From positions 1 to 44,949 of IMG/VR virus record IMGVR_UViG_3300034374_002211: a stretch of 44,949 nucleotides of DNA. One strand, given 5' to 3'. The notes beneath the pieces were generated by a model. It made no database searches. It saw only the letters and a program-made list of their open reading frames with translations, and was not told the origin of the DNA. The position numbers were made by a program, and so were the translations under genes. This document shows positions 7,635 through 25,870 of this stretch, in pieces; position 1 is the stretch's first letter; each line of letters begins with the position of its first letter. The stretch is from a virus.

Positions 7635-7857
7635 CTCGCATGTTTACCGCTGCTTCGTAATCAGCTTTAAGACCCTTGATCTGTTCCAGTGAAGTTATCT
7701 TCCCCTGAAGCCGGAACACTTCCAACTCCGATTGTGCCGCCACCAACGCCCGAAGCGTCATCTGGATTTGCTCCTGCAGGTACTCCTCCAGACTGTCCCA
7801 CGCCTTGCTGTTCGCCACCAGCGGGCTGACCTTGCTGGCTTGCTTCTTGTTGAGCAT
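7627..7857 (-). CDS. Small helical protein overprinted on the portal 3' end
   Basis: A 76-aa protein, MLNKKQASKVSPLVANSKAW through QSELEVFRLQGKITSLEQIK and ending AAVNMRDE. The pattern of a short helix, a W, and then QSELEVFRLQGKIxxLEqlk is one I associate with small phage proteins of unknown role next to portals. The first 191 bases lie inside the portal gene in another frame. Three facts support it as real: AAAGGA seven bases before the ATG, an 8-base ATGAGTGA overlap with the following start, and a protein-like helical sequence opposite a low-complexity portal tail. Function unknown; association with the portal or head vertex is inferred. Confidence 0.72.
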   Translation of the reverse strand: MLNKKQASKVSPLVANSKAWDSLEEYLQEQIQMTLRALVAAQSELEVFRLQGKITSLEQIKGLKADYEAAVNMRDE

Positions 7858-9781
7858 TAGCTAATCCTTTCAGCATTTCTGCAAATATTTGCGCTTCATT
7901 TATATCGTTTACCAAACTATCAGGATCGATATCTTGTGCTATAGCCAGTTCACGAATTAAGTTTGGAATTTTGATAAATGGTGCCAACATAGGGTTTGAT
8001 ACGGTTTGCAAAAGAGTAGTAAGACGTTGGCTACGAACTTCTTTTTGCATAACTGCCGCCACACCGCGTGGCTTAATCTCAAGATCGCCTTCAATGTCAG
8101 GGGCATCTTCGTTAAACTGCATGTTCCATTGAAAATAAGCTTCACCCAGTGGCTTCAAAAGGCAGTCGTCAATGTTTTTAATTACAGTCTTCAACGACAG
8201 GCTTGCACCGCCAAGAAGCATAGACAAACCTGATGCAGTGCGCCCTGTTCCCGTTACGCCCGTCTGTCCGTGCATAATTGAAGGAAGGCCCGTCTCTTCG
8301 TCTGCAAGCTGGCGTGAAATCTGATACATCTGTATGTTTTCACCAGCAGTGTTGGGAAACTTGAGTCCATTAATTGCTGTACCCGTAACACCGGACTGTC
8401 TGCGGAAAATTTTTCCGGGGAATATGTCCATGTTTTGTCCGGGAACCAAACTGGCTTCATCCACGTCAAATACAAGATTACCCGCTAGTGCAAGGTTATC
8501 AATTGCCATCCGAACGTGTCCGTTCATCAGCAACTGTGCATCTTCCATGTTTTCTGCAACACCAACACCCCACACTTGATACGGATTAATTTCGTAAGGA
8601 AATACTTGGTATGGAATACGCGCAGGTGTAAATGGATTCAAAACACAACGTAATACCATTGTGCCGCAGACCCACACATTAACTTGTACCTGATCAAATT
8701 CACTCATAGAATCAGGAACGTCCATTCCCGCTTCGCGGGCAAACTTAGCGTCAAGAACTCCCCAGTATTCTAGGACTTCGTAACGATTTTCCTGTACGTA
8801 TGGCTCTGTTTCATCTTCGCGAATAGTGTCTTCGTAATATTTGTCCTCGTAGTTTGGACCTTTTGTAAGACACTCTTCAATTGCATCTTTGTAAAAATAC
8901 GGGCTGTTAATCAGCGCACGTAGTTGTTGGCGATTCATACGGTGGCGTTGAATCACGTATTCACAATCGTCAATGCTTGTTGCAGATGGATCAGGATGAA
9001 AATCCCACGCAGAAACATGTTCAATACGTGGAACAATCTTTTCGTACGGATTGTACATACGACCATCGGGGCCGCGTTCCCACTTGTGTACTCGCTTGTA
9101 GTGGTTAAACGGACCTTTTACAATACCCGTTCCTAACAGTGCAGATTCGAATATTGCACTACGCAAAACATTTACAGCCCGTGTATCAAGCAGTTGATCG
9201 TGGATTTGTTTTTCCATGTTCAAAGCTGCAATTTGTGCGGGGCTTATCTGCGGCTCTCCCATTTTGGACGGGCCTTCAGATATTGGCATGTTAGCGTATT
9301 TAGACTCTAGGCCGCCTAAAAAGTCAGCAGCCGGAGCCGCTTGCATTGATCCGGGACCAAACTCACGTCCATCTCCCGGAAAACCATAAAGGTCTTCGAC
9401 TTCTGTCAGTTGATCTGCAGGAGTAGTAAGATGTGCAAATTCTGCGATTCCTTCGGGAACCGGAGTTGGTTCGATAACAAGAGGAAACTTTTTGTTGGCA
9501 AACAGAATATCTACAATTTGACCGTACGCAGCAAGAACTTTTGTCTTTGTAATTTTAATAAAGACTTTTGACTTTTCGCTTTCACGGTACTGAGTTGTTG
9601 AATCGTAGATACCACGAAAGTTTTTATACGCCTTTAGCCATCGCTGCTCGTAGGCGTACCTTCCGTTTTCTGCATCTTCAAATTTCGCCTTGATATGGGC
9701 GGCAAGACCCGGAAGTTGTTCTTCAGGGTCAACTACTGCTACCGTAGTATCATCGGCGGGTTCCAAAAAGTTATCGGACAT
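7667..9781 (-). CDS. Portal protein
   Basis: A 704-aa portal, the dodecameric head vertex through which DNA is packaged and ejected. The N-terminal region YAYEQRWLKAYKNFRGIYDS, then KVFIKITKTKVLAAYGQIVD and ILFANKKFPLVIEPTPVPEG, is characteristic of P22/HMO-type portals. The core includes SAWDFHPDPSATSIDDCEYV and GETGLPSIMHGQTGVTGTGR-like stretches (here ADEETGLPSIMHGQ). The last about 70 residues (from QQEASQQGQPAGGEQQG) are Gly, Gln and Ser rich and contain no recognisable fold; this is the part overprinted by the 76-aa gene. Length is as expected for the family. Confidence 0.88.
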   Translation of the reverse strand: MSDNFLEPADDTTVAVVDPEEQLPGLAAHIKAKFEDAENGRYAYEQRWLKAYKNFRGIYDSTTQYRESEKSKVFIKITKTKVLAAYGQIVDILFANKKFPLVIEPTPVPEGIAEFAHLTTPADQLTEVEDLYGFPGDGREFGPGSMQAAPAADFLGGLESKYANMPISEGPSKMGEPQISPAQIAALNMEKQIHDQLLDTRAVNVLRSAIFESALLGTGIVKGPFNHYKRVHKWERGPDGRMYNPYEKIVPRIEHVSAWDFHPDPSATSIDDCEYVIQRHRMNRQQLRALINSPYFYKDAIEECLTKGPNYEDKYYEDTIREDETEPYVQENRYEVLEYWGVLDAKFAREAGMDVPDSMSEFDQVQVNVWVCGTMVLRCVLNPFTPARIPYQVFPYEINPYQVWGVGVAENMEDAQLLMNGHVRMAIDNLALAGNLVFDVDEASLVPGQNMDIFPGKIFRRQSGVTGTAINGLKFPNTAGENIQMYQISRQLADEETGLPSIMHGQTGVTGTGRTASGLSMLLGGASLSLKTVIKNIDDCLLKPLGEAYFQWNMQFNEDAPDIEGDLEIKPRGVAAVMQKEVRSQRLTTLLQTVSNPMLAPFIKIPNLIRELAIAQDIDPDSLVNDINEAQIFAEMLKGLANAQQEASQQGQPAGGEQQGVGQSGGVPAGANPDDASGVGGGTIGVGSVPASGEDNFTGTDQGS

Positions 9782-9793
9782 TACCGTTTCCTT

Positions 9794-10012
9794 TTAGTAG
9801 TCGCGTTCTTCAGCCATCTTCATTACTGAAGGATCAACTGCAGTTTTGGACATCTTCTTTGGCATGTCTTCTGTAAGAACGTCAGTTTTCGCACGAGTGT
9901 CGAATTCCAAGCCCTCACGGTAAAGCTGGTTTGAACCCATTGCGTCATCGACGCTGGTTTCATCAGATGCCATGATGTACGATGCACCATAATTGTAGTT
10001 GTTGTTTGGCAT
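9794..10012 (-). CDS. Hypothetical protein, 72 aa
   Basis: A 72-aa polar protein starting MPNNNYNYGASYIMASDETS and ending KMAEERDY. It has no hydrophobic core pattern and is probably largely disordered, with a short C-terminal helix. It lies between the recombinase-like 661-aa gene and the portal, with 12 bases to the portal start, inside the late operon. Small adaptor or head-completion accessory proteins are often found here, but I do not recognise this one. Confidence 0.6.
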   Translation of the reverse strand: MPNNNYNYGASYIMASDETSVDDAMGSNQLYREGLEFDTRAKTDVLTEDMPKKMSKTAVDPSVMKMAEERDY

Positions 10013-10034: not shown

Positions 10035-12020
10035 TTAGCGGACTATACCGCCGTAGAGAAATGATTGAGCCATTGGTGTTTCTTCTCCTTGCATCGCGGC
10101 TCTACGTGCTAGGTTACGTTTTTCTACAAATCCTTCTGCTGCAAGCTGACCTTGATCAGTAGCTACAGGTTCTGGAATATTTACTGGGCCAGTAGGCTGT
10201 GGTGTAGGCTGGGAAAACAACTCAGGTTGATCTGCCATTACCCGTTCTACAGGACGTGGAGAGGTAACAGACGGGGAAACTTCAGACAACGCCTGTCCCG
10301 CAGTAACAACGTCAGACGGAGTAACGGGTAAAAATTCTGTAGCCCCAGCTATCGTTCCTAAAGTTTTTGCAGCACCCGAAGGAAGGCCCATAGCTTGTGC
10401 TTGCTGCGATACTGCGCTGTAAGTCTGCTCTGCTGCTACTGCAGAAAGTCCAACTGCTGCGGGTGGAAATACTACCTTTAAGACTTTTCCGGTACCCTTT
10501 GTAATCGGCTTTCCAAAAGTTTCTATCGCATCCGAAAGATAAGACTTTCCAACTTCTATAGACGACTTACGTGCTGCTTGTGATTTTGCTTTTGCCAGTT
10601 CCTGCTGTGCAGCCGCAATTTCAGGGGCTTGCTTGGCACGTTCTAGCAGTTTGGCTTCCGCTGCTTGTGCCTTTTCCTGTGCAGATAGTTCGGCTGTAGC
10701 TGTTGCTTCTGCAGTCTTTGCTGCCCGAAGCTGTTCGCCTTGTGCAATCTCTTCCGGCGTTGCTGCTCTAGTTTCTACAGGTGCGCCAGACGGACGCGCC
10801 AACGCTTCCACTTCAGGATATTCTGCGTTAAATTCTGCAGGAAGGTCTAGTCGAAGGGCTTCGCCCAATCCTTTTGCGTCTGCAGCCCCGACGGCATCTG
10901 CCATCATTTTTTCGTAGGCTGTTAGAATTTGTCCGCGCTGTTGTAGGCCACCGATATCTTCTACGTCAATATAGTAGCCCGTCATCACTTTATCAATAAG
11001 GGCTTCACCACCACCTTTGTGGCTTATAATTTCGCTTGCTAAGTCTGGTCGTCCAAGCTGGTTAGCAATTGCAGATGCAGTAATACGGCGAAGATCAGTG
11101 TACCCTGACGGCGCAGTCAAAAGCTGATCAAGAACTTTTTTTGGTATTTTTGGAAAAACGTGTTTTTTAAGGGCCGCTGTTATTTTCCCCGTTGTCATGC
11201 CGGGAAAAAGTTCGCCCGTTTCTCCTGCCGCGTCAAAACGACGATTTAAAATTTCACGAAGAACTGGTCCGGGAGGCTTATCCGGTCCTTTTGCCTTACG
11301 ACCACCACCTTCTGCTACTTCTGGATCTCGTGCAATTCCTAGTTCTCTGTCGTAATATGGTCGAACTGGCTTTGAACGGATTGCCAATTCACGAGATGTA
11401 CGCATACCAGAAAGATCTTCGCCCCGATAGCCAAGAAGAGACGCCATAACAGCATCTCTCGTTACGGGATCAGGAATGTCTCCGATGCCTTCTAGGACAG
11501 ACTGGAGAACTTCAGGAGGGATAGCACCTTTTGCAAGCTTACGTGTCCCTTTTGCTGCACCTGTACGGGCAAGCTTTTTATTCAATACGTTTTGAGTAGA
11601 TTGATAAAGCGGATCAACATTAGTGCGACGATAACTTTCAGATATTCCGCTTTCATCTGTAAGGCTAAACGATTTAAACTCGTCAAACGAAGAATTTAAA
11701 TCTACCTTTTTTGATATTGTGTTTATTCGAGAACTAATACCCTGCGTGTTTGGTGCAGGACCAGTTACTTCTTTAGAAAAAACTTTTTCAAATTGATTAT
11801 AAAAATCTTTTGTTTCGTCTAGTTCAGAAAGAATCGGCTCACTTGGTACGCCTTTGTTGTACATGTCGGCAATAAACGAATCGGCAACAGTGTGAGTGCC
11901 CGCTTCAATGCGCGAACGTACTTCGTTCATCGATGGAATTTTACCACTAGGAAAAAGAGTTTGCTGAATGTTTTTAAACGCAGCAACTACCTTTTTTTCT
12001 TGTTGGGTTAATTGGGCCAT
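10035..12020 (-). CDS. Tyrosine-recombinase-like core fused to an Ala/Pro-rich tail
   Basis: A 661-aa protein in the packaging module. Residues about 165-380 follow the plan of a tyrosine recombinase catalytic domain: LLGYRGEDLSGMR (R199 as first arginine with the usual following E201), ELFPGMTTGKITAALKKHV before the core as in P4-type integrases, TDLRRITASAIANQLG (R311 as second arginine; the usual His is T308), IISHKGGG (H334, exactly 23 residues after R311 as in Cre and XerD), and Y349/Y350 in a VMTGYY segment followed by a YEKMM helix. Residues 1-160 are helical and might be an arm or core-binding part. Residues 415-660 are Ala/Gln/Pro rich and carry a hydrophobic patch near 515-530. It is either an integrase that moved into the structural operon or a virion protein that kept the fold. 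The fold call is mine and unsearched. Confidence 0.6.
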   Translation of the reverse strand: MAQLTQQEKKVVAAFKNIQQTLFPSGKIPSMNEVRSRIEAGTHTVADSFIADMYNKGVPSEPILSELDETKDFYNQFEKVFSKEVTGPAPNTQGISSRINTISKKVDLNSSFDEFKSFSLTDESGISESYRRTNVDPLYQSTQNVLNKKLARTGAAKGTRKLAKGAIPPEVLQSVLEGIGDIPDPVTRDAVMASLLGYRGEDLSGMRTSRELAIRSKPVRPYYDRELGIARDPEVAEGGGRKAKGPDKPPGPVLREILNRRFDAAGETGELFPGMTTGKITAALKKHVFPKIPKKVLDQLLTAPSGYTDLRRITASAIANQLGRPDLASEIISHKGGGEALIDKVMTGYYIDVEDIGGLQQRGQILTAYEKMMADAVGAADAKGLGEALRLDLPAEFNAEYPEVEALARPSGAPVETRAATPEEIAQGEQLRAAKTAEATATAELSAQEKAQAAEAKLLERAKQAPEIAAAQQELAKAKSQAARKSSIEVGKSYLSDAIETFGKPITKGTGKVLKVVFPPAAVGLSAVAAEQTYSAVSQQAQAMGLPSGAAKTLGTIAGATEFLPVTPSDVVTAGQALSEVSPSVTSPRPVERVMADQPELFSQPTPQPTGPVNIPEPVATDQGQLAAEGFVEKRNLARRAAMQGEETPMAQSFLYGGIVR

Positions 12021-12023
12021 CTA

Positions 12024-13724
12024 TTAATATCCGAATACTTCGTCTTGTACCTTGTAGACGTGATTTTTAATTGCGCTTAGCTGTGAGTGTATGGATGCGT
12101 ATCCTGTCATGCGTGTCATCAGCATGTAGCGAAGTGCATCGTACGCGTGATCTTCAGACTTTGTGTCTACGTCTTCGCTGTTAGACTTAGACAGCGGAAT
12201 ACCTGCTATTTGTTTTACAATGTTTTGACACGAAGAAAAGAAACGCAAACGGGGTTCGCCAGAATACGGCTCGTCAGCCAGCCGTCGGTGAACCTCCATT
12301 TTTCCTTGTATTCTATTTCGATCTGCGGGTGTCCATCGGACTCCTTGTCTCATCATTACTTCTGCAATGGACGGTCCGAAACCTGTTTTGTTCCAGCACG
12401 AGGAGTCAAGAACTGTGTAGTGAGGAACTGGATCTAATTCCTCTGCTTCTAGTATTCTATCAGCTAGTTGTTCTGCTGTCAAGTGTTTTTCGTATAATTC
12501 TCTGTAAATCCAAATGTTGTTGTCCCAGTCAATTGCGCCCCAAAGAACACATGACGGTGCAGCGTACCCATAATCGGCTGCTCTGATGCGCGGCCAATTC
12601 GTTGGAAGTTCGAACGGCTCAACAACGTGCTTTGATCTACTGAATTCGGGAAAGGCTGCTCCCTCTGCCACGTCCCAATCCCCTTCGAGAAGTCTCTTCC
12701 GTTCAACTTCCGGGAGCGATCTGAGCATGGCCTCATACTGGCCGTCTGCCATCAGATAGGGGTTGTCAGTCAGCCGTGCGGGAACAAACTTGCGGAAGAA
12801 CAGCGGCTGACCTGCTTTTTCGTGACCAGCGGGCCACACAAAAGGAGATTTTGTATCTAAATCAAAGGCAGGGAAAGGCTTATTTTCAGGTGTACCTTCG
12901 ATGTACATCTTTTTAACCCACCATCCTCCGACGCCACCGGGGTTGGCGGTGCATCGCATGTAAAGGTGGTTTTGCAACTCTGGATCGGTAGAACGAAGAC
13001 GAGAACGCAAATAATCCCAAACGTACGGCGTGGGATACTGGGTAATTTCATCAATTCCAATCCAGTTAAACGCTTGACCTTGAAATCGGGTTACGTCTTT
13101 GTCTTTGTCGAGGTAGGTAAACCAAATGGTTGCACCGGAGGGAAAGTGCCACGTAGATTTTGACTCGCGAAACTTTGCTCCGGGGAACGCCTTTGTGTAA
13201 AGCTGGCGTGATTTGTCGATCAATTCGGTCAGTTCGTCGAGTGTGCGACGAAGAAGAAGGCCACGATGATTAGGATTGTGGCAAAAACGAAGCGGATCAG
13301 CAAGAAGCGCAAAGCTTTTTCCACCACCTGCAGCGCCGCCGTAAAGAACATCTCGTTCACTAGCTGAAAGAAACTCTTCTTGAGGGCCGCTGTTTGGCTT
13401 GAAGACAATTTCGGAATCTTCAATAAGATCACTGACAGCAGGTGGCAAATCGGAGAGATCGCCCTGATCAATGACGGTTGTTTCGGAGCCGTTAAGGGCT
13501 TTTTCGACCTTACCCATGCTCTCCGCCATCTTACGGGCGTAGCGACGCTTATCCTCCGCTGCCTTTGTAGATTTCTCCGCACGTTTCTTTGCAGCACGTA
13601 GTTTCTTTTGAGCCGCACGGCGGGCACGTTCCTTTACGGATAGGTTGTACGAGGATTTGGGTGCGTTTGGGTCTTTTTTTGGTCTACCGGTTTTTTTCGG
13701 CTGTGCTTGCTGCTTGTCTGCCAC
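12024..13724 (-). CDS. terL: Terminase large subunit
   Basis: A 566-aa packaging motor. The ATPase has Walker A GGAAGGGKS (129-137) and Walker B IGIDE (222-226). The nuclease half starts near RAADYGYAAPSCVLWGAI, with its first acidic residue in AADYG and a later YTVLDSS segment as second acidic site. The last acidic residue is probably in the SEDHAYDALRY motif near the C-terminus. The first about 75 residues form a long basic extension (TGRPKKDPNAPKS, then Arg/Lys/Ala repeats) resembling an AT-hook or a DNA-contacting tail. It follows the small terminase gene by two genes. Confidence 0.93.
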   Translation of the reverse strand: MADKQQAQPKKTGRPKKDPNAPKSSYNLSVKERARRAAQKKLRAAKKRAEKSTKAAEDKRRYARKMAESMGKVEKALNGSETTVIDQGDLSDLPPAVSDLIEDSEIVFKPNSGPQEEFLSASERDVLYGGAAGGGKSFALLADPLRFCHNPNHRGLLLRRTLDELTELIDKSRQLYTKAFPGAKFRESKSTWHFPSGATIWFTYLDKDKDVTRFQGQAFNWIGIDEITQYPTPYVWDYLRSRLRSTDPELQNHLYMRCTANPGGVGGWWVKKMYIEGTPENKPFPAFDLDTKSPFVWPAGHEKAGQPLFFRKFVPARLTDNPYLMADGQYEAMLRSLPEVERKRLLEGDWDVAEGAAFPEFSRSKHVVEPFELPTNWPRIRAADYGYAAPSCVLWGAIDWDNNIWIYRELYEKHLTAEQLADRILEAEELDPVPHYTVLDSSCWNKTGFGPSIAEVMMRQGVRWTPADRNRIQGKMEVHRRLADEPYSGEPRLRFFSSCQNIVKQIAGIPLSKSNSEDVDTKSEDHAYDALRYMLMTRMTGYASIHSQLSAIKNHVYKVQDEVFGY

Positions 13725-15133: not shown

Positions 15134-15162
15134 TTGACAAAATAAAAATCGGAGTGTACAAT
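15134..15162 (+). promoter_or_regulatory. Rightward sigma70-type promoter into non-coding DNA
   Basis: TTGACA (15134-15139) and TACAAT (15157-15162) are separated by 17 bases on the plus strand. The spacer contains ATCGGAGT (15148-15155), the inverted form of the ACTCCGAT core of the iterated repeat downstream, so a protein bound there would sit between the boxes. No plus-strand gene follows; the transcript would begin near 15169 and cross the repeats and hairpins, then run antisense to the 15.4-16 kb genes. Confidence 0.65.
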
Positions 15163-15314
15163 GGCATTGAGCCTGCCGGGGTAAATATATACCCCCCACG
15201 GGTACACGTTACAACTCCGATTCACAGCCCGTTACGACTCCGATGCACTCCCGTGTCGGGGTCGTCTTCGTTTGGGTAGCCCGTCAAGGGGGTGCACGTT
15301 ACGACTCCGATTCA
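15148..15314. repeat. Iterated 18-bp repeat, three direct copies plus one inverted core
   Basis: The word CGTTACrACTCCGATkCA occurs at 15207-15224, 15230-15247 and 15297-15314. Copies one and three are similar for a few bases further upstream (GGGTrCA). A fourth, inverted 8-bp core lies at 15148-15155 inside the rightward promoter. Spacing is 23 and then 67 bases, about two and six helix turns. Such arrays usually bind a protein: replication initiator, repressor or recombinase arm sites are all possible. Confidence 0.8.
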
Positions 15315-15413
15315 TAACCATATCGATAACCCCTAAAAAATAAAATTGAGAGGGGTATTGTTAGACCTTGTACTAGGGGGTGGGGTGGCCCTAGTGACCC
15401 CTATAGGGGTAAA
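15168..15413. other. Structured non-coding region with several hairpins
   Basis: No credible gene lies here. Besides the iterated repeat there are GGGGTAaatataTACCCC (15178-15195), ACCCCT/AGGGGT arms at 15329-15334 and 15351-15356, ACTAGGG/CCCTAGT arms at 15372-15378 and 15389-15395, and the perfect palindrome ACCCCTATAGGGGT (15397-15410). The same GGGGT/ACCCC word therefore recurs in four separate structures. The region could be a replication origin, a regulatory RNA from the rightward promoter, a packaging site or an attachment site; the sequence does not decide. Confidence 0.7.
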
Positions 15414-16883: not shown

Positions 16884-16964
16884 TCAGCCAAAAACGGCCA
16901 ATATGATCAAGATCAAAAAGATAATCCAGACCACTTTAAAAAGGTTGGCGATAAATTCAGTCAC
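16884..16964 (-). CDS. Single-membrane-helix micropeptide (GTG start)
   Basis: A 26-aa frame starting at a GTG whose last two bases are the first two of the DUF932 stop (GTGA). The product, VTEFIANLFKVVWIIFLILI followed by ILAVFG, is an almost pure membrane helix with a short polar N-terminus. The stop/start overlap and uninterrupted hydrophobic stretch argue for a real product, but it has no independent SD, and a chance T-rich stretch could give the same. It may be a membrane-acting toxin-like or superinfection peptide; inference only. Confidence 0.4.
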   Translation of the reverse strand: MTEFIANLFKVVWIIFLILIILAVFG

Positions 16965-17986
16965 GCGGCCATCCCTTCCAAATACTGCCAAGTAGGAGAT
17001 TCAAGAACACTCCGAACCTTGTCATTACGCTGTCGCTGGACCATGTGAACGGTTCCCGTCTTTTTGCCGGTCTGGCGTTCGACACCATCTTCACCGGTCC
17101 AAGTTTCGTTCGTATGGGTTGCCCAGTGTGTGAGGGCATTGTAACCGGCCCACAACGTCAGGCCCAGTTCGTCCCGTTCTTCGTTGAACCGATGCAAAAG
17201 ATAGTTCATCAGCCGTTCGTTGACGGGGTTGGCGTGGCCAAGTTCTGCCGCCTTGCCCGCCTTACGACAAACAGTCTCCGATAAAATCTGTGCAAAGTTC
17301 TCCGGAGTAAGCGGAGTTTCTGCCCACTTGGTCATCTGGTCCCGATTGCTGGTCCACATATCCAAACCCATCTCTGCCTTGCCCATCAAAGCTTCCGGCG
17401 ACAAGTTGGCCGTGTGTTTGCGCTTTTGGTGATATGCCTTCTGGCCACCAAAAACAAGCGTGTTGCGACACAGGTCACGATACGCCCCGCTGAATATCTG
17501 GAAAGCCCACGACATGTCTATTGAGTTAAAGACATCCATTCGGCACCGGACGTTGTCGGCCCCGTTCTTTACGGTTGCCTGTAGGTCGTTAAAGTAAACG
17601 GTTCTGTGAGCGCGTAGACCGTCATCATAGATTCGGTCCACAACGGTCAAGTCACCCTGCGGCAAGCTGGACTGTGCAAGCATCTCCGCCTGAGTTCGAA
17701 ACAGTCTATCGTGTGGGACCAAATTGTAGGTCTTACCAATTGGACGGGTATTCAATACCTCACCGGTCTCTGTATTCATCAAAGCCGAAAAGTTGGGCAT
17801 CGGCTCCGGTTCGCTGTACTCTTGGCCAAGCGGGTCATTAAAGATTCGCCGCGCTTCAATCGGCACCCGCCGGACTGCACCCATCTCTGTAAACAGACTG
17901 CAATCTGCGGGGTTCTTATGTGTAAATTCCCAGTTGCCTTTACCGGCAAGCTGGCGACGTTCGTTTGTTTCGATTACGTCAAACAT
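16961..17986 (-). CDS. DUF932 family protein
   Basis: A 341-aa protein of the DUF932 / phage-plasmid-like family (TIGR03299 type). Typical stretches are EPMPNFSALMNTETGEVLNT, IGKTYNLVPHDRLFRTQAEM, and a central NVRCRMDVFNSIDMSWAFQI with GAYRDLCRNTLVFGG. Members occur on phages and plasmids close to early or replication genes; their function is not established. GAAAGGAAAGAAAG precedes the ATG. It is the first gene after the promoter at 18.04 kb and should be the most expressed product of this early operon. Confidence 0.82.
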   Translation of the reverse strand: MFDVIETNERRQLAGKGNWEFTHKNPADCSLFTEMGAVRRVPIEARRIFNDPLGQEYSEPEPMPNFSALMNTETGEVLNTRPIGKTYNLVPHDRLFRTQAEMLAQSSLPQGDLTVVDRIYDDGLRAHRTVYFNDLQATVKNGADNVRCRMDVFNSIDMSWAFQIFSGAYRDLCRNTLVFGGQKAYHQKRKHTANLSPEALMGKAEMGLDMWTSNRDQMTKWAETPLTPENFAQILSETVCRKAGKAAELGHANPVNERLMNYLLHRFNEERDELGLTLWAGYNALTHWATHTNETWTGEDGVERQTGKKTGTVHMVQRQRNDKVRSVLESPTWQYLEGMAA

Positions 17987-18036
17987 GTCTTTCTTTCCTT
18001 TCGTTGTCCGGCACCCCCAGCGGGTCCGGTCATTTA

Positions 18037-18064
18037 TTTATACACCAAAAAAACAACAGTTGAA
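18037..18064 (-). promoter_or_regulatory. Putative promoter for the DUF932 operon
   Basis: On the minus strand TTCAAC (18064-18059) and TATAAA (18042-18037) are 16 bases apart, about 50 bases upstream of the DUF932 start. The -35 is imperfect. It follows directly on the terminator at 18.07-18.13 kb, as at two other places in this genome. Confidence 0.5.
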
Positions 18065-18073
18065 CCCCCAGAC

Positions 18074-18127
18074 AAAAAAAAAGATAAAAAAAAATGGGTG
18101 GCTGGCCCCATCGACTCGCCGCCACCC
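18074..18127 (-). terminator. Rho-independent terminator after the Gp88-like gene
   Basis: GGGTGGC (18096-18102) pairs with GCCACCC (18121-18127); the loop is 18 bases. On the minus strand it is followed by two runs of nine T separated by three bases. The rest of the 234-base gap 17987-18220 is C-rich and shows no gene. Confidence 0.72.
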
Positions 18128-18220
18128 GTGATCATCCCGTCACCCCGCCCCCGAACAAACAGACGGAAACATCCAGACGATCCCCAAAACAAGCGCAAAG
18201 CTTTACACTGACATTTTTTT

Positions 18221-18835
18221 TCATTTTACCGCCTCGACAATTGTTTGAACCCCGTTGCCGATAGTATAGCAAAGCAAACAATCGCGGCATTTTTGCCCCG
18301 TGCAGTTCTGTTTAATTCCTTTAAAGTGCTTTTCCACATTGTTGAACGTACGGTCAAAGAATTCAGGCGGGGATTGCATAACGCGATTGATGGTCGGGTT
18401 GCTGTAAATAAGAACAAGGTTCGCTGGTTTTTCCCGCTGGCTGTAAAACTTGCGGACAATATCTTTGCGCTTAGTCCACAACGCAAACGAACAATGCGGA
18501 TTGTGCAGGGTTATGTTGTGCAAATTTTCAAGGTGTGTTTCGTTAATCAATTCCCCGTGCGCGGAAAACCTAAAGAAAGCGTCCAGTATTGTTGGCAACA
18601 TATGTTCTGGAATTAATCCGCCGGACAGCATGTCGCTGTTGTGTTGCCAAGCCGGAGCGCAGTTTTTGCGAAGCCCGTTCAACATCTCGACACTGTAACA
18701 TTTTGTGCAGATTAAATCTTTCTTTTTGCTGTTGTACATTTTGACGCAAAACGGATTCGTCAAGGTGTTTGTGCTTATTGCGCGAAGCCCGTCAAGCTTG
18801 CCGGACATTTTTGAGATTTTAATAACGCTGTTCAT
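18221..18835 (-). CDS. Gp88-family phage protein
   Basis: A 204-aa protein resembling the phage Gene product 88 family. Matching stretches are NPFCVKMYNSKKKDLICTKC, a following CYSVEMLNGLRKN, then THLENLHNITLHNPHCSFAL, WTKRKDIVRKF and ANLVLIYSNPTINR. Cysteines occur as CTKCYS and as a C-terminal CTGQKCRDCLLC cluster, enough for an iron-sulfur or zinc site. Function of the family is not known. The ATG at 18835 is chosen because GGGACCGAAC, the leader seen before two other genes, precedes it; the frame extends 22 codons upstream. It is the last gene before the 18.1-kb terminator. Confidence 0.78.
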   Translation of the reverse strand: MNSVIKISKMSGKLDGLRAISTNTLTNPFCVKMYNSKKKDLICTKCYSVEMLNGLRKNCAPAWQHNSDMLSGGLIPEHMLPTILDAFFRFSAHGELINETHLENLHNITLHNPHCSFALWTKRKDIVRKFYSQREKPANLVLIYSNPTINRVMQSPPEFFDRTFNNVEKHFKGIKQNCTGQKCRDCLLCYTIGNGVQTIVEAVK

Positions 18836-18875
18836 CGGTTCGGTCCCCGTTGTTGTGTGTATGTGTTCGGGAACC

Positions 18876-19061
18876 TTACGGATAATAGCCGGTATGGTCA
18901 AGCTGAATTATTTTTTTACCTTGTTTTTTCAGCCAACACTCCGGACACCACAAAACTTGCTGTTCGTGAACCATTGCCGGTTCGCCGCATTTGTGGCATT
19001 CATAGTACGGATCAAGCGTGGTCTTGCGAGGCTTTTTGCTGACAATATTTTTGGCTGACAT
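18876..19061 (-). CDS. Zinc-ribbon small protein
   Basis: A 61-aa protein. A basic N-terminus (MSAKNIVSKKPRKTTLDPYY) precedes a zinc ribbon: ECHKCGEPAMVHEQQVLWCP followed by ECWLKK, that is CxxC, 15 residues, CxxC. Such ribbons in small early phage proteins usually bind nucleic acid or host transcription or translation factors. The frame extends upstream, but the ATG at 19061 gives the compact domain. A GCTGACA repeat overlaps the start codon. Partner unknown. Confidence 0.65.
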   Translation of the reverse strand: MSAKNIVSKKPRKTTLDPYYECHKCGEPAMVHEQQVLWCPECWLKKQGKKIIQLDHTGYYP

Positions 19062-23639: not shown

Positions 23640-23791
23640 TGAGCAATCACGAAAACGAAGAAATTTTAGAACGCCTGTACGATGAGGAGTACAAAAGAGT
23701 GATGGAAAGGTGGCCCAAACTTGACGAAGATCAGGTGGGGATGTATGCTGCTTACTTTGCGCGTAAACGATTTGAGGAAGAATCACAATGA
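23639..23791 (+). CDS. Hypothetical protein, 50 aa
   Basis: A 50-aa acidic helical protein, MSNHENEEILERLYDEEYKR, then VMERWPKLDEDQVGMYAAYF and a short ARKRFEEESQ tail. Its start overlaps the helicase stop (TGATG) and its stop overlaps the exonuclease start (ATGA), so it is translated between two replication enzymes. Codon pattern and coupling support it. The acidic helix could be a replisome linker, by inference only. Confidence 0.65.
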   Translation: MSNHENEEILERLYDEEYKRVMERWPKLDEDQVGMYAAYFARKRFEEESQ

Positions 23792-24369
23792 AAGTGTTGA
23801 CATACGATGTGGAAACAACACACATCCATAAGCCAAACGGAGGTACGACTGCTCTACCCTATTTCGGCAACACTCTCGTTTCTATTGGTTACAAGTGGCT
23901 GGATGAAGATCAGGTGTTTTATGATTGTTACTACCACTCAACGGAGCCACCTACCCCGTCCGCCGCACAAGACTTTCAATCTGCGTTGAACTACGCTGAT
24001 GTTCTTGTTGGGCAGAATATTAAGTTTGACCTGCAGTGGATACGCGAGTGTGGGTTCACATACGATGGAGACGTTTATGATACTATGGTTGCAGAGTATG
24101 TTTTATCAAAAGCCCAAAGGTGGCCTCTTGGACTTGCTTCTCTTGCAGAAAAGTATGGTGGAGTGCAAAAGGAAAAAGACCTTGTTCAGCCGTACATGGA
24201 TTCGGGCAAAACATTTTACGACATCCCGTGGGAAATAATAAAAGAGTATGGTATAGCTGACGTACTTGCCACAGAGCATGTGGCTCTGAAACAGCTAGAA
24301 GCCTTTGGCACAACATTTGAGGAACTTTACAATGAACACGCTACTGCCAACACTACGCTTGTCGCTTGA
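23788..24369 (+). CDS. DnaQ-like 3'-5' exonuclease (DEDDy), polymerase proofreading partner
   Basis: A 193-aa exonuclease. D7 and E9 (TYDVET), D81 (NIKFD) and the Y164-xxx-D168 pair (EYGIADVL) give the DEDDy active site. In most family A polymerases this domain is joined to the polymerase; here the polymerase follows as a separate frame starting 38 bases before the exonuclease stop. It should remove misincorporated bases in complex with the polymerase. Length equals that of the isolated exonuclease domain. Confidence 0.88.
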   Translation: MKVLTYDVETTHIHKPNGGTTALPYFGNTLVSIGYKWLDEDQVFYDCYYHSTEPPTPSAAQDFQSALNYADVLVGQNIKFDLQWIRECGFTYDGDVYDTMVAEYVLSKAQRWPLGLASLAEKYGGVQKEKDLVQPYMDSGKTFYDIPWEIIKEYGIADVLATEHVALKQLEAFGTTFEELYNEHATANTTLVA

Positions 24370-25870
24370 GATGACTGACACGCTTTCTCGCATCGAAAGA
24401 AACGGACTCAAAATAAACAAAGACACGCTGATTGAAATCGAAAGGCAATACACAGAAGAACTAGAAGAACTGGAGATCAACTTGAACGCTATGGCTCGTG
24501 AGGCTATGGGAGACACGCCGGTCAGCCTGACGAGTCCGGATGATCGTTCGATGCTTCTCTATTCTAGAAAAGTAAAAGACAAAAAGGCGTGGTCGCGTGT
24601 ATTCAATTTGGGAATGGAGCAACGTGGTGCAACTATGAAACCAAAGCAACGGACGCGCATGAAACGCAAAGACTTTGTTTCAACTGTCCGGAGCATGACA
24701 GATGTTGTCTACAAAACAAGAGGACAGCAGTGCAGTAACTGCTATGGAGACGGTAGATATAAGGTGACAAAAAAGGACGGCACATTGGGAAAGGCCACCC
24801 GTATTTGTCGGGTGTGCAACGGTGCCGGTATTTTGTATGTACCTACGCGAGAGGTAGCTGGATTCAAAGTTGTCCCGCGCAACCCGTTCGATGTAGCATC
24901 TGCCGGATTCAGGACGGACAAAGAAACTCTTGGGGAACGGCAAATGGAACTGTCAGGTGATGCCTTACAGTTTGTCAAATCGTACGTCCGATACAACGCG
25001 CTTCGTACTTACCTCAACACTTTTGTAGAAGGAATAAAAAACAATGTTGATGAAAAGGGCTTCATCCATCCGGAGTTTATGCAGTGTGTTACGGCAACGG
25101 GTCGCCTTTCGTCTCGCAATCCTAACTTTCAGAATATGCCACGTGGAAATACCTTCGCTATACGGAAGGTTGTCGAGAGCCGTTTCGAGGGTGGTTCGAT
25201 CCTTGAGGGAGATTATTCCCAACTAGAGTTTCGTGTTGCGGGGTTTCTTGCCAAAGACGGACAAGTATATGTGGATGTGAATGCCGGAACGGACGTGCAT
25301 AGTTACACTGCCAGCGTGATTGGTTGCACCCGTCAAGAAGCAAAGGCTCACACCTTCAAGCCGCTGTACGGTGGCACCACCGGAACAGAGGACCAGAAAC
25401 GCTACTACACGGCGTTTAAAGAAAAGTATGAGGGTGTGACCCAATGGCACGATGACCTCCAGCGAGAGGCCGTAGAAAAGCGCGTAATCACCCTTCCAAG
25501 TGGTAGACAGTACGCCTTTCCAAATGCACGGTGGACAGAGTACGGAACAGCGGTGGGGCGGACCAACATATGCAACTATCCGGTTCAGGGTTTTGCTACG
25601 GCAGATTTGTTGCCAACTGCTCTTGTCAGGCTTGACAAATTATTTCAAAAAAATAATCTCAAGTCTGTAATTTGCAACACCGTTCACGATTCAATTGTTC
25701 TGGATGTACACCCCAGTGAAAAGGACATTTGTATCAGTCTGATGCGGGAGGCAATGCTTGCTCTACCTGAAGAGACAGAACAAAGATATGGCGTACGCTA
25801 CGACATGCCTGTCGGAATTGAATTAAAAATAGGCGAAAATTGGCTTGACTTAGATGTGGTTGATGACTAA
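24332..25870 (+). CDS. Family A DNA polymerase with DnaJ-type zinc finger
   Basis: A 512-aa polymerase. Palm and finger motifs are complete: TGRLSSRNPNFQNMP (about 256-270), motif A EGDYSQLEF with D294, motif B RQEAKAHTFKPLYGG with R334, K338, Y346, and motif C TVHDSIVLD with D453. Between thumb and palm lies a DnaJ-like finger: CSNCYGDG (C134, C137) and CRVCNGAG (C159, C162). This insertion is the known hallmark of HMO-2011-type phages. The ATG at 24332 follows GAGGAA at good distance. The proofreading domain is in the preceding gene. The finger may bind DNA or a chaperone-like partner; its role is not known. Confidence 0.93.
   Translation: MNTLLPTLRLSLEMTDTLSRIERNGLKINKDTLIEIERQYTEELEELEINLNAMAREAMGDTPVSLTSPDDRSMLLYSRKVKDKKAWSRVFNLGMEQRGATMKPKQRTRMKRKDFVSTVRSMTDVVYKTRGQQCSNCYGDGRYKVTKKDGTLGKATRICRVCNGAGILYVPTREVAGFKVVPRNPFDVASAGFRTDKETLGERQMELSGDALQFVKSYVRYNALRTYLNTFVEGIKNNVDEKGFIHPEFMQCVTATGRLSSRNPNFQNMPRGNTFAIRKVVESRFEGGSILEGDYSQLEFRVAGFLAKDGQVYVDVNAGTDVHSYTASVIGCTRQEAKAHTFKPLYGGTTGTEDQKRYYTAFKEKYEGVTQWHDDLQREAVEKRVITLPSGRQYAFPNARWTEYGTAVGRTNICNYPVQGFATADLLPTALVRLDKLFQKNNLKSVICNTVHDSIVLDVHPSEKDICISLMREAMLALPEETEQRYGVRYDMPVGIELKIGENWLDLDVVDD

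Follow-up and report, generated by a model that had tools for sequence, protein, structure and literature searches.

Phage integrases are usually seen as proteins that the cell produces at an early stage of infection or upon induction. Among the HMO-2011-type podoviruses, the conventional integrases (HMO-2011, CRP-1, CRP-2, CRP-3) are proteins of 292–374 aa without a long tail, and those published sit upstream of the replication genes (PMC9038755). For one of these phages, CRP-3, integration has been demonstrated, with a tRNA-Met gene as the site (PMC6918029). The tyrosine recombinase fold also occurs in a phage protein used outside integration, the SPbeta master repressor MrpR, which has lost most catalytic residues and acts as a repressor (PMC10516654). 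A further relevant class is that of the polyvalent, or injected, phage proteins, which are large, multi-part and encoded among the late virion genes; a survey of such injected multidomain proteins makes no mention of a recombinase or integrase domain (PMC5512222).

The protein described here, of 661 aa and referred to as P0001, resembles each of these in part. It comes from the same phage group as the conventional HMO-2011-type integrases and appears to belong to the same superfamily, but it is longer, carries a long tail and is encoded away from their usual place. Like the polyvalent proteins it is large, multi-part and encoded among late virion genes. Unlike MrpR, its branch keeps the catalytic residues invariant.

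The gene and its operon

The window, i.e., the whole stretch of DNA that was analysed, is a 44.9-kb virus record from IMG/VR (IMGVR_UViG_3300034374_002211). Its large terminase subunit (TerL) is 49–57% identical to the TerLs of HMO-2011-type podoviruses (SAR116, Roseobacter and SAR11 hosts) and of the HTVC103P group, and, like HMO-2011, it encodes an endonuclease I and a DnaB-like helicase, along with ORFs for an exonuclease and a DNA polymerase. The DNA polymerase, a single gene in HMO-2011, is represented at 23788–25870 by two ORFs, one for a 3'-5' exonuclease and one for a polymerase that contains a CxxCxGxG zinc motif of the DnaJ type. Between the late and the replication genes (16961–18901), a DUF932 protein (16961–17986) and a Gp88-like protein (18221–18901) are encoded on the minus strand.

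The initial annotation had pointed to a 661-aa product between portal and large terminase, and this arrangement was borne out, with TerL upstream of the minus-strand ORF and a 72-aa ORF and the portal gene downstream:

12024..13724, minus strand: large terminase subunit (TerL)
10035..12020, minus strand: whole ORF of the late tyrosine recombinase (P0001, 661 aa); 53 distinct relatives aligned
11526..12020, minus strand: N-terminal helical region (residues 1–90) and presumed core-binding domain (residues 91–165), domain boundaries inferred
10881..11525, minus strand: catalytic domain, residues 166–380
10038..10880, minus strand: Ala/Pro-rich C-terminal tail, residues 381–661, exchanged among relatives
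9794..10012, minus strand: 72-aa acidic conserved ORF between recombinase and portal
7667..9781, minus strand: portal / head-tail adaptor protein

Read from 12020 down to 10035, the recombinase ORF starts 3 nt past the end of TerL and is followed by a 22-nt spacer and then the 72-aa ORF, with the portal gene next. Scans of viral contigs brought the total to more than 80 loci, and the alignment statistics below are from 53 distinct sequences. In every locus with enough DNA, the order TerL, recombinase, 72-aa ORF, portal is constant and on a single strand. In the same comparison, the TerL and portal of the relatives are mostly 73–93% identical to those of the window and the recombinase 34–74%, so the recombinase gene evolves much faster than these neighbours. 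The initial annotation knew of no description of such a protein in this operon, and none for a recombinase there was found in open full text.

The 72-aa protein (9794–10012) is acidic and mostly 57–88% conserved. Its C-terminal motif, VDPSxxxMAEERDY, recurs in the same slot in Pelagibacter phage HTVC033P and in a SAR11 single-cell contig. A role as excisionase was considered and rejected: the protein is acidic, its conservation exceeds that of the recombinase, and the motif is also present in the isolate HTVC033P, whose slot has no recombinase. It is possibly a head or portal assembly factor.

Fold and active site

Searches of Pfam, PHROGs and PDB sequences gave no match for P0001, and the INPHARED phages yielded nothing convincing; weak matches to CMAS, Focal_AT and ribosomal L9 were judged to be chance. 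The integrase model PF00589 matches the conventional integrases in the three genomes searched, but it matched neither P0001 nor 15 aligned relatives, and BLAST detected no similarity between P0001 and the conventional HMO-2011-type integrases. A profile of 27 relatives was compared with one built from 13 recombinases, among them lambda Int, XerD and those of HMO-2011 and CRP-3; the two aligned with a score of 33.1 (E 0.0016), in a register that places R199, R311 and H334 opposite R212, R311 and H333 of lambda Int. As the hhalign probability for this match is only 16%, the weight rests on the shuffle control, in which 200 column-shuffled profiles scored 22.5 or less (the reversed profile scored 14.5).

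An AlphaFold model of residues 1–398 had a mean pLDDT of 76, with mostly 80–95 in the helices of the N-terminal region and below 50 at 333–362, the segment bearing Y350. The first 17 PDB matches of this model in Foldseek were all tyrosine recombinases; structure matches included XerA, lambda Int, XerH, a staphylococcal integrase and an integron integrase, with probabilities of up to 1.00 and a best E of only 3.5e-3. The model thus appears to contain the core-binding and catalytic domain fold of tyrosine recombinases, its Tyr segment being poorly modelled. The full-length model gave weak structure matches because of the disordered tail. Structure prediction was one of the checks that the initial annotation had proposed, and it agrees with the profile comparison, with the conservation described next and with the integrase domains in positional homologs; the 661-aa protein almost certainly has the tyrosine recombinase fold.

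The residues of the putative active site are as follows:

11424..11426, minus strand: R199 (Arg I), invariant in 53; aligned with lambda R212
11415-11417, minus strand: D202, acidic residue at R+3 (as lambda D215), invariant in 53
11295..11297, minus strand: K242, candidate beta2-3 lysine, invariant in 53
11097..11099, minus strand: T308, at the position where box II usually has His (T 47, S 5, A 1)
11088..11090, minus strand: R311 (Arg II), invariant; aligned with lambda R311
11019..11021, minus strand: H334 (second His), invariant; 23 residues past R311; aligned with lambda H333
10971..10973, minus strand: Y350, candidate nucleophile, invariant in 53

Catalytic domains of the 53 distinct relatives are 41–89% identical to that of the window, and 21 of the 215 columns are invariant. 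R199, R311, H334 and one of Y349/Y350 had been named beforehand, in the initial annotation, and all fall among these 21 columns, for which simple counting gives a chance of ~1e-4; the invariance of K242 and D202 was noticed afterwards and is outside this count. Each named residue was found at the position given for it, R311 within TDLRR, and the 23 residues from R311 to H334 equal the spacing in E. coli XerD, which was compared directly. For the nucleophile, the initial annotation had offered Y349 and Y350. Only the latter stood: Y350 is present in 53/53 sequences and position 349 varies (Y 26, F 26, H 1), which makes Y350 the nucleophile candidate. Neither of the two outcomes that the initial annotation would have taken as refutation, a model lacking the recombinase fold or homologs lacking R199, R311, H334 and the Tyr, was observed.

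The Thr before the second Arg, also remarked on in the initial annotation, is typical of the family, as the box II His of the RKHRH pentad is absent from position 308 in all 53 relatives. In this the 661-aa protein is like the integrases of HMO-2011 and CRP-3, in which box II is an xDLRR without His (Met and Arg, respectively, at that position). Since the CRP-3 integrase has Arg there yet integrates, loss of this His is not in itself evidence against activity. The residue is weakly conserved in the IntBPP-1 subgroup and is Tyr in IntDes (PMC8138268).

XerA, XerD and lambda Int share with the 661-aa protein the fold, as judged by structure search, the R, K, R, H and Y residues and the acidic residue at R+3. 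The order of the catalytic residues is that of a tyrosine recombinase (Arg I, Lys, Arg II, second His, Tyr), but the Tyr spacing is unusual (16 residues from the second His vs the usual 9), and the Thr for the box II His, the extra N-terminal region and the 280-residue tail are further differences from these three enzymes. Judged by its sequence, the active site is intact-looking (R199, K242, T308 for His, R311, H334, Y350), and the protein is probably an active enzyme. Outside the catalytic domain, the median identity to relatives is 49% for residues 1–90 and 36% for the presumed core-binding region (residues 91–165), which is highly variable.

Other proteins between TerL and portal, and their tails

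TerL relatives were fetched regardless of their recombinase content. In 30/30 complete slots with a TerL at least 74% identical, a single ORF, never shorter than 548 aa, occupies the 1.9–2.5 kb between TerL and portal. Many of the more distant TerL relatives also have a large protein in the slot and in others the slot is empty or short; in HMO-2011 and CRP-2, TerL adjoins the portal gene directly. Most slot proteins of these distant relatives are unmatched by the P0001 family profile. PF00589, in turn, matched L231 (2.6e-30), L238 (5e-23), L236 (6e-21) and L212 (1e-6), and HxxR...H...Y patterns are present in L231, L232, L236 and L238. These five proteins are like the 661-aa protein in having an N-terminal integrase domain and a long tail in the same slot. 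They differ in that they are not found by similarity to P0001 and have tails without recognisable kinship to that of the window, and in that the integrase domains of L231, L232, L236 and L238 are canonical. Three of them (L231:3458-6400, L236:6088-9108, L238:2109-5261) are tyrosine recombinases of ~1000 aa, with the N-terminal integrase domain followed by a C-terminal extension of ~700 residues without recognised function.

Group profiles of slot proteins were compared with the recombinase profile. A match that exceeded each of 15 shuffles was obtained for groups B, C, E, F, H, I, J, L and Q3, with E values between 2.6e-3 and 2.7e-14, and weakly for groups D and G. There was no match for groups K1, K2, M1, M2, O, P, Q1 and Q2, the tail-only pair L233/L227 or five control proteins of the window. 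In the checked sequences of groups C, E, F and H, Arg replaces the second His, so that some members of the slot family have apparently altered active sites. These groups, along with the slot proteins that have no recombinase domain, indicate that recombination is not essential to the slot. L208, L210, L194 and L212, in which the Arg is exactly 23 residues past the box II Arg, at the second-His position, form a natural altered-active-site set.

Pairwise identities indicate that residues 1–380 and the last 200 residues behave as separate pieces. L202 and L208 are 99.5% identical over the first 380 residues and 45% over the last 200, and L010 and L029 are 96% and 44% identical; for L013 and L063 the relation is reversed (49% and 96.5%). 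Recombinase halves and tails have thus been swapped between phages. Tails are also common to slot proteins whose N-terminal halves BLAST leaves unrelated to the P0001 family (for example, L208 and L010, 71% over ~200 aa), and part of the L231 tail recurs in L233 and L227, both without a detected recombinase domain. A tail is present in all full-length relatives. A short end motif containing Phe or Tyr (e.g., SFL, GFI) is found in 25/47 slot proteins vs 6% of shuffled tails, a ratio that is descriptive only, as the sequences are related. Sequence analysis with its controls establishes four points: to which fold family the protein belongs, that the active site is conserved in this branch, that the place in the operon is constant and that the tail is modular.

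Mode of action and candidate sites

We favour the reading that the 661-aa protein is a divergent late-operon tyrosine recombinase with an exchangeable tail, whose target would be the phage genome, either during packaging or right after entry, and we give this statement as a whole a probability of roughly 45%. Its constant place inside the packaging operon suggests that the recombinase is made late. It would cut DNA via Y350 at a specific site, and through its tail it may be coupled with packaging or with the particle. This coupling is the most likely further step, considering that clearly different recombinase types recur in the slot, each with a long tail, and that tails are exchanged; slot proteins without a recombinase domain argue against it, and a tie to packaging or particle is proposed tentatively, at a little under even odds. 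The enzyme could act on the phage genome at packaging or, alternatively, be carried in with the DNA, with circularisation or integration right after entry. A more specific version, in which the recombinase rides in the particle by its exchangeable tail and is delivered with the DNA for site-specific recombination before any phage gene expression, is speculative and rather unlikely.

The same gene could instead be a temperate-phage integrase that is lodged in the late operon with an incidental tail and acts only in the infected cell at a host site. Conserved active-site residues are consistent with this, as is the highly variable presumed core-binding region, which would be expected with changing target sites. 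The distribution of integrases also fits: PF00589 gave no match in 12 late-recombinase records (40–54 kb long in five cases, none established as complete), the same search picked up the integrases of HMO-2011, CRP-2 and CRP-3, and PF00239 gave no match in eight records, the window included. Records with the late recombinase thus have no conventional integrase detected, and isolates of the group with an integrase do not have this gene, as if one had replaced the other. However, the spacers flanking the gene, only 3 nt and 22 nt, leave no intergenic space beside it for an attP-like site, and a pattern-based search of 84,980 species genomes of bacteria and archaea, which was not exhaustive and in which marine hosts are poorly sampled, confirmed no homolog. 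A TerL scan of bacterial and archaeal genomes returned mainly metagenome-assembled contigs, with no significant match to the late recombinase family. Moreover, the tail is kept by every full-length relative and exchanged between them, and a protein synthesised late would be badly timed for integration unless it were carried over. We consider such an integrase possible but doubtful.

Whether the protein is a working enzyme or a reused fold was left undecided in the initial annotation. If reused, it would be a DNA-binding, head or packaging protein that no longer recombines, for which MrpR is a precedent (PMC10516654). The location among head and packaging genes would suit such a protein, and so would the sister slot proteins with Arg for the second His (groups C, E, F and H) or without the domain. 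Yet the window branch keeps all catalytic positions except the box II His invariant despite its fast evolution, whereas MrpR lost most of them (PMC10516654). This strict conservation favours a working enzyme in the window branch, the altered sister proteins notwithstanding, and reuse of the fold seems unlikely here. Far less plausible still is a telomere resolvase, which would give a linear phage genome hairpin ends. A palindrome search gave only three imperfect candidates, the longest with 16-bp arms, vs two in one shuffled copy, and the structural matches are led by XerA, lambda Int and XerH, with no telomere resolvase among the 50 matches listed. Phage telomere resolvases are similar in length to the 661-aa protein, which counts in favour of this idea. 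They are also of the same catalytic superfamily (PMC12270096).

On the favoured reading, the late recombinase would be a variant of tyrosine recombinases, and delivery in the particle would be a new kind of use for them. A fast-evolving recombinase that many lineages of marine phages keep in this slot, with different recombinase types each on a long tail, would tie site-specific recombination to packaging or to delivery in the particle. Prediction of lysogeny from marine viral genomes would be affected as well, since the standard Pfam model misses the 661-aa protein and such phages are scored as integrase-less.

Direct repeats were considered as possible recombination sites. The intergenic region at 15147–15316, upstream of the late genes and ~3 kb upstream of the recombinase, contains GTTACRACTCCGATKCA three times in direct orientation (~0.2 expected by chance) and once more as a partial, inverted copy. 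In several relatives, other direct repeats lie at this place, e.g., TATGAAACCGACGTGTAGGGG. Among the fetched loci, the only other one with the repeat motif of the window is a second contig of the same virus, and further matches in the collection are single copies. The repeats at 15204–15316 may serve in regulation, packaging or recombination; as recombination sites they are a lead only. A 12-mer common to the window and a distant place in G001 lies in a coding region and was judged to be chance. The repeats adjoin a conserved GGTTAYCGATA element and promoter-like sequences.
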